Source: an uncultured Erysipelotrichaceae bacterium (GTDB lineage: Bacteria > Bacillota_I > Bacilli_A > Erysipelotrichales > Erysipelotrichaceae). Taken from it: a stretch of DNA of 64,000 nt. Every line of letters begins with the position of its first letter. Positions within the stretch are counted from its first letter, which is position 1. The stretch is taken from the NCBI GenBank assembly GCA_945875435.1, contig CAMCKH010000004.1, positions 1 to 64,000 on the forward strand. The letters run 5' to 3'. The notes under the pieces are model-generated. The model searched no databases, was not told where the DNA came from, and saw only the letters and a list, made by a program, of their open reading frames with translations. A program made the position numbers and the translations under genes. Shown here one piece after another: positions 4,252 through 46,086 of the stretch.

Positions 4252-4278
4252 AATAACTCTTTTAAGAGTTATTTTATT
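4251..4278. terminator. bidirectional hairpin terminator between the toxin and histidine-triad genes
   Basis: 11-bp stem AAATAACTCTT / AAGAGTTATTT (4251-4261 with 4264-4274) followed by T-rich sequence on both strands. It lies between the convergent ends of the two genes. Confidence 0.7.
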
Positions 4279-6361
4279 AATTAATTATTTCAAGCATATC
4301 TCTAATACTATCAACCATTTGATATATATCTTCTCTAAAAGTACCAAAACTTCCCATTTTTGGTGAATCAAGTCTAATCAGTGGCGTTTCTTCATAACCA
4401 TAATAAGTTTTGGTTGCGGTGAATGTTATCGGAATGTTTTTAATTTCTTGATGAGCTTGGATAATTCTTGCAAATAAATGACTACCTACATTCGCATCAT
4501 TCATTTCAATTATTAAATAAGCCAATTCATTTCTAACCTCTTCACTTAAAGAATAATCATCTACATAACGAAGGAAAAATTCAGTATAAGACATCATCAT
4601 TATTGAGGGTCTTGAATGTAAAGCTAGTAGTTTATTAAGATAATTTTTAACATTTTCTAACCCTGTTAGATCTTTATTTGTTTCTAATAATTGAATAGTT
4701 TCTAAAACTTTGTTTTTTTCAATTCCACCTAGATCGGTTTTACGAATAAATGCACTATCTTTTAAAATGTTTTCAATTTCATTAACTTTATTTTCTAAAA
4801 TTATTTCTTCATCACTTTTTACATTTTCATTTACAGTTTTAAAAATATATGTATTCGCAAAAAGATTAAGATTTTCAATAAATCCAGCAGTTGAATTTTC
4901 AATAAAATTATCTCTTTGATTTTTCAACAATTTATAATCAAAATAATCTAAGGCTCTTGAAACATAACGATGTTCTTTTTCACTTAATTTAGTTTTTGAA
5001 AGCTCTAAAAGTTCTTTGCTTTTGTTTAAAACAGTTTCAACATCAAGTTCGCCCTCTTGTTTATTTCCTTTTGGAACGCTTATTCTATTTTTTTCATATA
5101 ATTCTTGCCCTAATGATTTGACTTTAATTGAATGTTCATGATTTCCGCTAGGAATAAAAAACCTTCCATTTTCTACCCTTAATTCTTCTGGAATAATATT
5201 AACACGAATTGCGGTAGCTTCTAATTCGTTCAAATAATCTATTTCTAAATCATCACTTCTTTCAGGAATAATAACTCTATCAACTAAAACACTTACTGGG
5301 TGAATGTGAGTTGGGTCGTATTCCATCATAGGCTCGTTATAAGAAAAATAAAGTTTATCTTGATATTTATAAAGCCTAATTGCTTGAATTGGAACAACAT
5401 CCTCCCCCTTTAAATTTTTACCAAATACATAACTTAAATATTGTTTTTTAAGGTGAATTAGTTCTTGTTTTTCTAAAGTTAAATCTTTTAAAATTTCTGT
5501 TTCTTGATTATTTATTTGAATTGTATCATAAGAAACTAAATGTAAATGATCATCGTGAGGAATATAAAATACCTTATCCTTATATGCGATTAAATTTTTT
5601 GATACTTTTGTTTGTTTTGAAAGTTCTTCTAATTTATAGTTATAATCATCTTCCAACTTTTCAATTAGAGGAGTAAAATTATTATCTTTAATACTTTTAT
5701 CATATTCTGCTTGATTTAAAACATATCCCTTATCTTGATATAACACATAATAAAAATCATTGTGTTTTATTATTTTGGAGAATAGGTTATTTGTTGGGGT
5801 TATTTTTGTGATTTCTACTTTATTTTCAATTTTATCAATATTTAGAAAATTATCAGGATTTTCATAAATAATATATTCTCTGCCATCTAAAAGTTTAATG
5901 TGGTAGTGATCTTTGTGTTTATATTTTGCTATTATTTGGTTTTTATTTGCAATTATTTCTGCTTTTTCTTTTAAAATAATTGTTTCAAAAGATTCTTCTG
6001 TATTGTTTTTTTCTAATACTTTTTTATTTTTAGTATCAAAATATAAATTATTGTTTTCTTTTAAAAATTCAAGGTATTGTTTTTCAGTAACAATATATTC
6101 ATTACCTTTATAAATTATGTGATAATGGTCTTCGTGAAGAAAGGCTATAACCTTAATTTTATCACCGTTTAAATAAATTTCTTTGATATTATCGTTTTCT
6201 TTAACGGTATCATTTTCTTTTTTTTCTACCACTGGGGTTTTAGTTTCTATTTTCTCTTTTTCTTCTTTAATCACAGTTTCTTCTTTTTTACGAGATAAAA
6301 TAAAAAACATTAAAACACTCATTATTAAAAAAAATAAAATTAAATAAAATCTCTTTTTCAT
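4277..6361 (-). CDS. histidine-triad (Pht-like) membrane-anchored protein
   Basis: 694 residues. One N-terminal membrane segment (about residues 5-23, RFYLILFFLIMSVLMFFIL) with no lipobox Cys, then a Lys/Glu-rich linker. HxxHxH-type triads recur: HEDHYH and HKDHYH (about residues 75-155), HDDHLH (about 275) and, less perfectly, DPTHIHPV and GNHEHS (about 350-410). A degenerate unit reads HNDFYY. The spacing and the partner motif (IxYKGNEYIV) resemble streptococcal Pht proteins, which bind zinc at the triads. The C-terminal 270 residues are helical and not recognised. It is anchored by a transmembrane helix instead of a lipid, unlike most Pht proteins. Zinc acquisition or storage is inference. 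Transcription comes from the promoter at 6388-6416 with an adjacent palindrome. Confidence 0.75.
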   Translation of the reverse strand: MKKRFYLILFFLIMSVLMFFILSRKKEETVIKEEKEKIETKTPVVEKKENDTVKENDNIKEIYLNGDKIKVIAFLHEDHYHIIYKGNEYIVTEKQYLEFLKENNNLYFDTKNKKVLEKNNTEESFETIILKEKAEIIANKNQIIAKYKHKDHYHIKLLDGREYIIYENPDNFLNIDKIENKVEITKITPTNNLFSKIIKHNDFYYVLYQDKGYVLNQAEYDKSIKDNNFTPLIEKLEDDYNYKLEELSKQTKVSKNLIAYKDKVFYIPHDDHLHLVSYDTIQINNQETEILKDLTLEKQELIHLKKQYLSYVFGKNLKGEDVVPIQAIRLYKYQDKLYFSYNEPMMEYDPTHIHPVSVLVDRVIIPERSDDLEIDYLNELEATAIRVNIIPEELRVENGRFFIPSGNHEHSIKVKSLGQELYEKNRISVPKGNKQEGELDVETVLNKSKELLELSKTKLSEKEHRYVSRALDYFDYKLLKNQRDNFIENSTAGFIENLNLFANTYIFKTVNENVKSDEEIILENKVNEIENILKDSAFIRKTDLGGIEKNKVLETIQLLETNKDLTGLENVKNYLNKLLALHSRPSIMMMSYTEFFLRYVDDYSLSEEVRNELAYLIIEMNDANVGSHLFARIIQAHQEIKNIPITFTATKTYYGYEETPLIRLDSPKMGSFGTFREDIYQMVDSIRDMLEIIN

Positions 6362-6445: not shown

Positions 6446-6520
6446 AAAATAAAAAAGAATATTTTAAAATATTCTTGGTTTAAACTTATTCTTTATAAAT
6501 CTCTAAACTACATTATACCA
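6446..6520 (-). ncRNA. candidate short RNA divergent from leader module copy 1
   Basis: On the minus strand an extended -10 box TGGTATAAT (6512-6520) is followed about 30-50 nt later by a perfect 22-bp palindrome (6455-6476) and a run of T, a good intrinsic terminator. No ORF lies between, so a transcript of about 60 nt is predicted. The same arrangement exists beside copy 2 of the module. Function unknown. Confidence 0.35.
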
Positions 6521-6647
6521 TAAATAAATATTTAATATAAGACTTATATTAAATCAATATAACTTATATAATATAATTAGTAATAAGGAGATTATTATGA
6601 AAGTTATACTTTATAATCTCCACAGATATAAGAATGGAGATAATTAA
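6503..6647 (+). promoter_or_regulatory. duplicated leader module, copy 1
   Basis: 145-bp element, also present at 45942-46086 on the minus strand with only about five base differences. In order: divergent extended -10 (TGGTATAAT, minus strand), perfect palindrome ATTTAATATAAG-A-CTTATATTAAAT, overlapping TATAAT boxes (6567-6577), Shine-Dalgarno and a 16-codon ORF. GGAGATTAT (6587-6595) can pair with ATAATCTCC (6613-6621), which can alternatively pair with GGAGATAAT (6636-6644). This resembles a translation-attenuation leader. It lies 34 bp before the next gene. Confidence 0.7.
6597..6647 (+). CDS. 16-residue leader peptide, copy 1
   Basis: Micro-ORF MKVILYNLHRYKNGDN with a strong Shine-Dalgarno (AAGGAG, 6 nt before the ATG). 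The second copy encodes exactly the same peptide. The only internal base change is synonymous (His CAC/CAT), and the stop differs (TAA/TAG), which argues that it is translated. Its codons contain the central arm of the two alternative RNA stems, so ribosome movement through it would change folding before the next gene. It is not similar to any leader peptide I know. Confidence 0.6.
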   Translation: MKVILYNLHRYKNGDN

Positions 6648-6681: not shown

Positions 6682-6879
6682 ATGGTAATTAAAAATAAAT
6701 TAACTTATCTTTGGGTGGTTGCTGCTATTATAATTTTTATCAAATTAGCATTTGATATTACCCAAAACAATTACGATAAAGTTTTAATGCTTGTGATGTT
6801 AGAAGTTATGTGTATTTATTGCTTTATTAAATTAAACTCTAGATCTTCTTATCTAAATCCTGATCATCCTAAAAAATAA
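6682..6879 (+). CDS. small two-helix membrane protein
   Basis: 65 residues with two hydrophobic segments (about 9-26 LWVVAAIIIFIKLAF and 34-50 VLMLVMLEVMCIYCFI) and a polar tail ending NPDHPKK. AAAGGAGG lies 6 nt before the ATG. Not recognised. It is the only gene between leader module copy 1 and a terminator (6878-6898), so its expression is probably set by that leader. Confidence 0.7.
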   Translation: MVIKNKLTYLWVVAAIIIFIKLAFDITQNNYDKVLMLVMLEVMCIYCFIKLNSRSSYLNPDHPKK

Positions 6880-43963: not shown

Positions 43964-44653
43964 TTAATATATGAAGAATCCTCTTCCACTTTCTTCGTGT
44001 TCCATACCATTAATTATATTTGGTAAACCTACAGTCCCCTTACCTGGTATCGGTGCGTCTCCAAATGGATCTATAAAATAAATTTTTTTATGACCATTAG
44101 TATATGAATAACCATGAGCTATTATAAAATGTCCACTTTCAGTAGGATAATTTATATTAAATTTTTGTGGATGATTAAGAAGAATTATAACAGGGTGATT
44201 ATCATTTATGGTTTTTTGTAGTGATTCAAAGAAATTTCTTTCTTTTGTATGTCTAACCACATAATAATTATCAATACCACGATATGAGTTGATATCTGAT
44301 GCGAGTGAATATATAGAGGTTCCATTTTCTTTGGTGGTTCCCATATCTCTTGCGAAAGTATCTTGTTCAATATATCTATTTGTAACATATTTAAGTGTCA
44401 TCTGAGCTACCGCAGGTCCGCAGTAATAGTCGTTATCTTGAAAATAAACAGGCACATCTAAAACTCTTTCATTACTTCTAGTCATTTTTACAGTTAATTC
44501 TTCTTTATCTTTTCGTTTTTTAATTTCTTCATTTTTATAAAATTGTTCTCTGGTAGGAATTCCAACAGTACCTTTAGCATTAGTGATTTGAGGTTTAGGT
44601 AGAAAGATTGTTATTAAAATAAACACCACTAGTATTCTAATCAATTTATTCAT
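43964..44653 (-). CDS. secreted C39-like cysteine peptidase
   Basis: 229 residues. Signal peptide about 1-26 (MNKLIRILVVFILITIFLPKPQITNA), a charged linker, then a papain-like C39_2 domain: Cys78 in DNDYYCGPAVAQMTLKYV, catalytic His region SGHFIIAHGYS and IDPFGD. This family includes peptidases that act outside the cell, but most members have no known substrate. Encoded 10 bp after a lipoprotein gene and probably translated from the same mRNA, which starts in leader module copy 2. A small regulated secretion unit is suggested. Confidence 0.82.
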   Translation of the reverse strand: MNKLIRILVVFILITIFLPKPQITNAKGTVGIPTREQFYKNEEIKKRKDKEELTVKMTRSNERVLDVPVYFQDNDYYCGPAVAQMTLKYVTNRYIEQDTFARDMGTTKENGTSIYSLASDINSYRGIDNYYVVRHTKERNFFESLQKTINDNHPVIILLNHPQKFNINYPTESGHFIIAHGYSYTNGHKKIYFIDPFGDAPIPGKGTVGLPNIINGMEHEESGRGFFIY

Positions 44654-44663
44654 TATTTCCTCC

Positions 44664-45905
44664 TTATCTAGTTATTTCTATTTCTTTTAAATTAATTATG
44701 CTGTCTTGTTTAAAATTTTCTTCTAAAACTATTATATTTTTTTGATTATCAAAACCAATCAATCTGAGTTTTATATCATTTAAAAATTCTGATTTTATAG
44801 GAACACCTATTGATTTTAAATGTATCTCACTATCTTTGTACGTTACTTCAAAAATATCTTTTAACCCAGATATATCATCACCCACAATATAAAGATAATC
44901 TTCATCTACAAGCGATCCTGAATTATGGAAATAAATATCAAAATAATCATATTCTGAATCATTTAGTTTTTCAGAATTTTTATAGATATTTTTAATTATC
45001 TCATTAGTTTTTTTATCTAAAAATCCTAATTTTTTTACATCTATCTCATCAATATAAGTTATAAACTGAAATTCATTTAAATCATTCATTTCAAAAACTT
45101 TGGGATGACTTTCAATTTCCAAAACTTCTTCATTAAAAGGATTTACTTTATAAACCTTATGAACTCCATCTTTAAAAGTTACATAAGTTGCGTTATCTTC
45201 ATTTTTATTAGCTTCTGATCTCATTAAAATTTCTTCATCTTTTCCATTATCTCCATTTAAATTTAATGGATTATATTTTCTTAAAACTTTATTTTCACCA
45301 GTATCTAAATTAAATAAATTCATATAGGTAAATTCTTTACCATTCTCAACACCTTTACTAAAAGATATTACTTTATTTTCAAATTGTGAAAATAAACGAT
45401 AAAAACCTCCATAAAATTGTGCATCACCATACACCTCTATTTCATTACCTTCTTTTACATAATAAGTGTAATTTTTTTCATTAACCCAATCATTAACTCT
45501 GTATAAATAATTTCCATTATGATACGCAATTCCAGTAGCTTTAATACCTTTTCTATCTTCTAGATTTTTTAATGTATGATAAGTCTTATCTTTTAAATCT
45601 ATATAACCTATCCCGAAGGTATCAAATTGACCTGGACCATTTATAATCCAATCATTTTCAGCAGTCTTTTTGATATAATTTTCATTTGTGATTCTAAAAC
45701 TAAAAAATACCTTATCATCATTAATTCCTAAAATATAATAATCATATGCGTTTGGATGTACTTGTTTTAAATCAAATGTAATTATTTCATTCACATTATA
45801 AGATCTATTTTTTGGAATTTCTTTTTCTTCAACAATTGTTTTATTTTGAAAAGTGCTACAAGAAGTTAGTATTAAAATTACTAAAAATATTATTATCTTT
45901 TTCAT
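44664..45905 (-). CDS. lipoprotein, unknown, first gene of the peptidase operon
   Basis: 413 residues. MKKIIIFLVILILTSCSTF has a clear lipobox (LTSC, Cys17). The mature part is a series of short strands with Tyr, Asp and Gly turns (YDYYILGINDDKVFFSFRI, GIGYIDLKDKTYHTLKNLEDRKG, ENKVISFSKGVENGKEFTYMNLFNLDTGE) resembling a beta-propeller; this is inference. No family recognised. AAGGAGG precedes the ATG. The duplicated leader module ends 36 bp upstream, so the gene is probably controlled by it. The C39-like peptidase follows at 10 bp. Confidence 0.78.
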   Translation of the reverse strand: MKKIIIFLVILILTSCSTFQNKTIVEEKEIPKNRSYNVNEIITFDLKQVHPNAYDYYILGINDDKVFFSFRITNENYIKKTAENDWIINGPGQFDTFGIGYIDLKDKTYHTLKNLEDRKGIKATGIAYHNGNYLYRVNDWVNEKNYTYYVKEGNEIEVYGDAQFYGGFYRLFSQFENKVISFSKGVENGKEFTYMNLFNLDTGENKVLRKYNPLNLNGDNGKDEEILMRSEANKNEDNATYVTFKDGVHKVYKVNPFNEEVLEIESHPKVFEMNDLNEFQFITYIDEIDVKKLGFLDKKTNEIIKNIYKNSEKLNDSEYDYFDIYFHNSGSLVDEDYLYIVGDDISGLKDIFEVTYKDSEIHLKSIGVPIKSEFLNDIKLRLIGFDNQKNIIVLEENFKQDSIINLKEIEITR

Positions 45906-45941: not shown

Positions 45942-45992
45942 CTAATTATCTCCATTCTTATATCTATGGAGATTATAAAGTATAACTTTCAT
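45942..45992 (-). CDS. 16-residue leader peptide, copy 2
   Basis: Encodes MKVILYNLHRYKNGDN, identical to copy 1, with His codon CAT instead of CAC and stop TAG instead of TAA. Strong Shine-Dalgarno AAGGAGG. Confidence 0.6.
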   Translation of the reverse strand: MKVILYNLHRYKNGDN

Positions 45993-46086
45993 AATAACCT
46001 CCTTATTACTACTTATATTATATAAGTTATATTGATTTAATATAAGTCTTATATTAAATATTTATTTATGGTATAATGTAGTTTAG
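45942..46086 (-). promoter_or_regulatory. duplicated leader module, copy 2
   Basis: Minus-strand copy of the element at 6503-6647, same length, about five differences. One (A to G in the micro-ORF Shine-Dalgarno, giving GGAGGTTAT at 45994-46002) turns an A-U pair of the stem into G-U, so pairing with ATAATCTCC is kept. It lies directly upstream of the lipoprotein/peptidase operon. Flanks differ between copies. Confidence 0.7.

Follow-up and report, generated by a model that had tools for sequence, protein, structure and literature searches.

A short reading frame with an RYKNG core precedes exported-protein genes in Erysipelotrichales: a candidate nascent-peptide leader

Why should one short stretch of DNA stand, almost unchanged, in front of unrelated envelope genes of an uncultured Erysipelotrichaceae bacterium? 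The window (the whole stretch of 64,000 nucleotides that was analysed) carries a 145-bp sequence twice, at 6503-6647 (+) and 45942-46086 (-). The repeat pair reported in the preliminary description is real, and the copies differ at exactly four positions instead of about five: 6577 T/G, 6591 A/G, 6623 C/T, and 6647 A/G. Both copies encode the micro-ORF MKVILYNLHRYKNGDN behind an AAGGAG/AAGGAGG Shine-Dalgarno (SD) site, and the two differences within this ORF are, as originally described, a synonymous His codon (CAC/CAT, 6623) and a changed stop codon (TAA/TAG, 6647). The SD of copy 1 lies at 6585-6590 (+) and its micro-ORF, with the core RYKNG, at 6597-6647 (+); the micro-ORF of copy 2 occupies 45942-45992 (-). 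The next ATG begins 34 nt past the micro-ORF stop in copy 1 and 36 nt past it in copy 2. The downstream genes also agreed with the first account: a 65-aa two-helix membrane protein after copy 1 (6682-6879, +) and, after copy 2, a 413-aa lipoprotein (44664-45905, -) followed by a C39-like peptidase with a signal peptide (43964-44653, -), which matched Peptidase_C39_2 in Pfam (PF13529, E 6e-19).

Upstream of its micro-ORF, copy 1 contains a 23-bp palindrome (TTTAATATAAGACTTATATTAAA, 6531-6553), a probable operator overlapping the -35 region, and overlapping TATAAT boxes (6567-6577, +) that, from consensus, are the probable -10. The palindrome of copy 2 lies at 46036-46058. At three mismatches or fewer, 0.03 occurrences of the palindrome were expected in the window and two perfect ones were observed; the 145-bp similarity is far beyond chance.

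Searching the window's own genome (1.17 Mb in 20 contigs, as searched) with the 145-bp element returned two further copies, making four in all: G000:C11:12507-12650 (-), 94% identical, and C13:12350-12486 (-), 92% identical. Common to all four were the palindrome TTTAATATAAGnCTTATATTAAA, the TATAAT region, the SD and MKVILYNLHRYKNGDN; in copy 4 the palindrome had one mismatch and the micro-ORF 15 residues. At one mismatch or fewer the palindrome occurred only in the four cassette copies across the whole genome, and at two or fewer it was found nowhere else in the genome. A membrane or secreted product was encoded after every copy. Copy 3 preceded a pair of small membrane proteins and a 159-aa secreted protein, and copy 4 preceded a bacteriocin-like operon in which a secreted protein of 129 aa is accompanied by two membrane proteins and an ABC ATPase; "bacteriocin-like" here refers to the operon layout, the secreted protein itself having no Pfam or NCBIfam match.

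Four near-identical copies with unrelated flanks in one genome could also be left by a transposable, MITE-like element, for which random positions, terminal repeats and target duplications had been named in advance as the marks. None of these marks was found for the four copies. When they were aligned with their flanks, inspection showed no terminal inverted repeats or target duplications; all four were co-oriented with the next gene and stood 34-39 nt ahead of it; and copies 2 and 3 were identical as far as the next gene's SD, a pattern that the shuffling of entire promoter-leader units would leave. A MITE is hardly credible on these grounds. Because all four copies sit at gene fronts and show no terminal repeats or target duplications, the cassette looks like a promoter-leader unit copied ahead of genes and not like a transposon.

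Other features were observed around the cassettes. A perfect extended -10 (TATGGTATAAT, 6512-6522, -, in copy 1) is kept in all four and points away from the micro-ORF, and a terminator-like hairpin stands about 30-60 nt past it in copies 1 and 3; a very short divergent RNA from this predicted promoter is possible. Divergent from copy 1, a 694-aa protein (4277-6361, -) resembles streptococcal surface proteins of the histidine-triad type. Next to copy 4, some 160 bp at the 3' end of the ABC ATPase gene that follows it recur as an inverted duplicate (L019, about 5560-5730 versus 1983-2140), probably a remnant of the rearrangement that brought this copy into place.

Beyond this genome, the cassette DNA gave only AT-rich partial matches in relatives, and no other genome matched most of its length. 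The RYKNG core, in contrast, turned up in many genomes, where the promoters, the spacers and the residues N-terminal to it are unrelated. The proposal that no other genome might hold the element, which would have spoken against it, was therefore borne out for the cassette DNA and contradicted for the micro-ORF. Likewise, the idea of a duplicated regulatory cassette with a (probably) translated leader, forming a small regulon, stands for the four co-oriented copies, but the general entity is the RYKNG peptide core and not the 145-bp cassette.

The first find outside this genome was the micro-ORF MLKYNLHRYKNGDLI in a Traorella genome, from a degenerate YNLHRYKNG search of 84,980 species. With wider patterns and a profile (HMM) built from 30 members, the core [SQHAG]-R-Y-K-N-G-(D/I/V) was found in about 90 short ORFs of 9-35 residues, from about 24 genomes, 10 genera and two families of Erysipelotrichales; the figure of about 90 merges three overlapping searches, is not fully deduplicated, and includes some fragmentary genomes. 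Copies per genome ranged from one to about 14, with about 12-14 in each of G135 and G218. In the window's genome the profile search (E < 0.02) gave seven loci: the four cassettes and three diverged loci on C8, C2 and C6, each with an exported gene next. The C2 ORF had no clear SD, and the C6 locus was not a separate micro-ORF but the instance, taken up below, of the core as the tail of an HTH frame.

With the strict minimal pattern there were 40 match rows, several of them overlapping start variants of single sites; all fell within the order, and the reversed control gave two. Across a class-wide sample of Bacilli, this pattern had zero matches outside Erysipelotrichales, and two genomes from outside the order matched the first pattern, both in a chance-like manner or within proteins. 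Matches with two mismatches were unreliable by themselves, the control columns also being populated, and the family is defined from exact, ORF-tested and HMM-found loci. The first-pattern matches L054-L057 and L063-L065 were set aside as coincidental or in-protein. No plasmid match was obtained. A phage or viral source was rejected, the viral pattern matches being mostly in-protein or chance, with the prophage-borne micro-ORF L194 as the exception. The one representative scanned matched no family model, and neither RYKNG, YNLHRYKNG nor a matching description appeared in any paper found, in a literature search of incomplete coverage that provides absence of evidence. The RYKNG mini-gene family is apparently undescribed.

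NxxRYKNG is fixed in the patterns that partly determined the catalogue, and its conservation there is hence not independent; R, K and N are invariant in it partly because the catalogue filter requires them. Independent support comes from the free positions, homologous pairs and profile-found loci. The residue before Arg, left free by every search pattern, was S, Q or H in 48 of 55 loci, and the residue after the core was D in 39 of 55 and otherwise I, V or E. In the homologous operons of L099 and L104, MLTYNPSRYKNG was kept through several synonymous changes while the flanks diverged. L213 (this genome) and L207 (another genus) precede genes for DUF6973 proteins that are 59% identical, and their micro-ORFs have little in common beyond N-x-x-RYKNGD. 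Across the family, the distance from start to core ranged from two residues (MMGRYKNGD) to 11, and the tails from zero to more than 20.

Codon choice within the core varied: Arg was AGA, AGG, CGA or CGG; Lys was AAA or AAG; Asn was AAT or AAC; and Gly was GGN. From this codon-level conservation of amino acids and from the SD sites, we infer that the micro-ORFs are translated. Among 53 distinct micro-ORFs, the core Arg codon was the rare AGG in 23 (5.7 expected) and the core Asn codon was AAC in 31 (13.9 expected), a bias that the upstream Asn did not have. This preference could mark a slow codon or an RNA-level site. The latter would suit an explanation in which the element is an RNA (or DNA) site that falls in a coding frame by chance, e.g., a protein or small-RNA binding site with the consensus MGRTATAARAAYGG. 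The strong over-use of AGG and AAC, and the purine at the third base of Arg in 53 of 55, agree with such a site; the variable wobble bases of the Tyr, Lys, Asn and Gly codons do not, nor does the open frame with its start codon, kept in nearly all loci. In addition, no element matched Rfam 15 at the gathering score, and no common RNA structure was found across the family. A nucleic acid site of this kind is distinctly unlikely.

The genes that follow the micro-ORFs were strongly biased. The next co-oriented gene was exported or membrane in 39 of 48 catalogue loci, versus 70 of 250 background genes (28%; odds ratio 11, p = 5e-12), with exported status assigned by an N-terminal hydrophobicity rule and not by a trained predictor, and with background genes drawn from the same loci. 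Among further loci from the HMM search, which used neither an SD nor a start-codon requirement, the next gene was exported or membrane in 23 of the 24 with a callable gene (two of these being near-identical tandem loci), and in G224/G133 it was so in five of five. The micro-ORFs form a family with a conserved amino-acid core and variable codons, N-termini and tails, directly upstream of exported and membrane genes and in the same orientation. The products included a class IId circular bacteriocin (L105; PF09221, 1e-13), the two DUF6973 proteins, a bacteriocin-like ABC operon, and many orphans. In G087, a homologue of the 65-aa protein of copy 1 (41% identity) follows a micro-ORF, with 409 nt between them. 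At L253, L270, L271, L272 and L297, the downstream secreted proteins share a short CxCG/CxxCG stretch after the signal peptide and are possibly one undescribed family.

The core also occurs joined to longer frames. In L221/L284 an HTH_3 regulator frame ends with it, in frame, and an exported gene comes next; the beginning of the HTH profile is missing from this frame, possibly through decay of the gene. In L300 (2620-2940, -), an exported thioredoxin-like lipoprotein starts with MVSRYKNGD (MVSRYKNGDRLILKFF...), so that the core is the start of the signal peptide; a further micro-ORF is found a short way upstream. Each of the two fusions is a single example.

A strong SD, a short spacer and a constant place ahead of an SD-bearing gene could be explained by bicistronic coupling, in which the micro-ORF is a sequence-insensitive translation starter copied with promoters and the peptide has no specific role. 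An amino-acid core conserved across genera and gene contexts is at odds with this, and the spacers of 100-250 nt between micro-ORF and gene in many family loci make simple coupling unlikely. Plain coupling is accordingly very improbable.

In 27 loci the downstream SD had a mean unpaired fraction of 0.52, versus 0.52 in shuffles, and no excess pairing of either SD was found across the family; an RNA attenuator as the general mechanism was rejected, the 27 loci being indistinguishable from shuffles. Intrinsic terminators between leader and gene were present in four of 55 loci (0.85 expected), too few for terminator-based attenuation to be general. L148, L127 and L141 have a clear intrinsic terminator immediately after the micro-ORF, and in this subset attenuation or an independent mini-transcript is possible. 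The trp and his attenuator leaders resemble the RYKNG frames as short translated leaders ahead of an operon (translation being predicted here), but differ in that the micro-ORFs contain no run of one amino acid's codons and that terminators are confined to the four loci.

For the window's genome alone, a local translational attenuator can be drawn. The N-L-H codons (AAUCUCC) form an anti-Shine-Dalgarno with three potential partners: the SD of the micro-ORF itself, the GGAGAU at the micro-ORF's end, and the SD of the next gene. A hairpin over the micro-ORF start reaches -11.7 kcal/mol, with two of 200 shuffles as good, and the four full leaders fold into differing alternatives. The z of the full leaders is only -1.2 to -1.8, however; the four copies are recent duplicates and hence allow no covariation test; and the arrangement was not seen across the family. 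Such an attenuator is doubtful even here.

The main rival to a leader acting in cis is a diffusible peptide, a free trans-acting, pheromone-like signal within or between cells that would be sensed by an XRE/HTH regulator and call for bacteriocins and envelope proteins. It holds this place because small HTH_3 regulators lie directly upstream, close enough for co-transcription, in L102, L105 and L194. Bacteriocin-type genes, which are among the products here, are often under peptide control. These regulators, and one nearby in L207, are HTH_3-like, about 75-83 aa long, with a similar C[VI]Y..F end, and in two of L102, L105 and L194 the final codons of the regulator contain the SD of the micro-ORF. 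In streptococci, very short ORFs near regulators can be signals (PMC9426450). The Rgg-SHP and ComRS systems of those bacteria are similar in having very short ORFs at competition-gene promoters, sometimes beside an HTH regulator. Unlike their peptides, however, the RYKNG frames have no secretion signal, no hydrophobic leader or precursor, and no fixed mature C-terminus, the tails being variable, and there is one copy at each target operon. An HTH-TPR receptor of the RRNPP/Rgg type was not seen in the one adjacent regulator scanned, whose 75 aa gave HTH matches only and no peptide-binding TPR domain. The fusions to an HTH frame end and to a lipoprotein start also argue against a released peptide. 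A diffusible signal is unlikely, though the RNA-binding site, the local attenuator and plain coupling are all weaker.

The favoured reading, a leader whose nascent peptide acts in cis and pauses ribosomes before they reach an exported gene, has roughly even prospects of being correct, the pausing itself being predicted. Every target carries a copy, the core can stand at any distance from the start and be followed by any tail, and in-frame fusions occur, which together argue for action in cis; the indifference to the ends of the ORF, with the constant placement at an exported gene, points to the ribosome as the site of that action. A nascent-peptide pause would be the simplest cis mechanism. 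A ribosome that has just made ...RYKNG(D) would slow or arrest, and the pause would set the amount of downstream exported protein made. The read-out would be ribosome hand-over or re-initiation, or protection of the mRNA 5' end, and not a conserved hairpin switch. In this genome, the palindrome may add a conventional switch that turns transcription of the four-member sub-regulon on or off. Over-use of the rare AGG is compatible with a pause site. Against a cis-acting arrest, the usual read-outs of arrest leaders, SD sequestration and terminators, were not found family-wide; in some carriers a regulator that is probably co-transcribed comes first, and the ORF is then no 5' leader; and the AGG/AAC preference fits an RNA-level site equally well.

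As a kind, the leader peptide is known. ErmBL, ErmCL, ErmDL, the CmlA leader and TnaC are likewise short ORFs with a strong SD just upstream of a regulated gene, and likewise have few conserved residues able to act within a nascent chain of 9-13 residues. R-Y-K also fits the +X+ type of macrolide stall site. The upstream SD-preceded ORF and the amino-acid core conservation of erm-type leaders were found here, while their SD-hiding alternative hairpins were not, beyond a weak hint in this genome only. Each of those leaders belongs to a single type of gene or operon and is usually read out by a hairpin or terminator, whereas one RYKNG core stands before as many as about 14 operons of a genome, unrelated and for exported products, with no common hairpin found. 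SecM, MifM and VemP share with it a nascent-chain signal (predicted here) ahead of export-related genes; they are long enough to reach the export machinery and control that machinery, whereas the products of the RYKNG ORFs (9-35 aa) would in most cases still be inside the exit tunnel when complete, and the genes that follow encode cargo proteins. Put forward tentatively, and short of an even chance, is the wider reading that RYKNG would define a new regulatory class of nascent peptide, a portable core that pauses ribosomes with no fixed chain length or RNA switch and underlies an order-wide, translation-level regulon of exported effectors.

Overall, regulatory leader peptides are usually found singly, gene by gene; here a core carried by ORFs of as few as nine residues marks from several to about 14 operons in a genome; nearly all of these encode exported proteins, and several are bacteriocin-like. 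What is new is one portable core common to many unrelated exported-gene operons. ORFs so short are generally missed by annotation, and the regulon has therefore likely gone unseen so far. The RYKNG core looks like a common on-the-ribosome control signal for exported weapons and envelope proteins in gut Erysipelotrichales, and offers a handle for finding unannotated secreted effectors in these bacteria.
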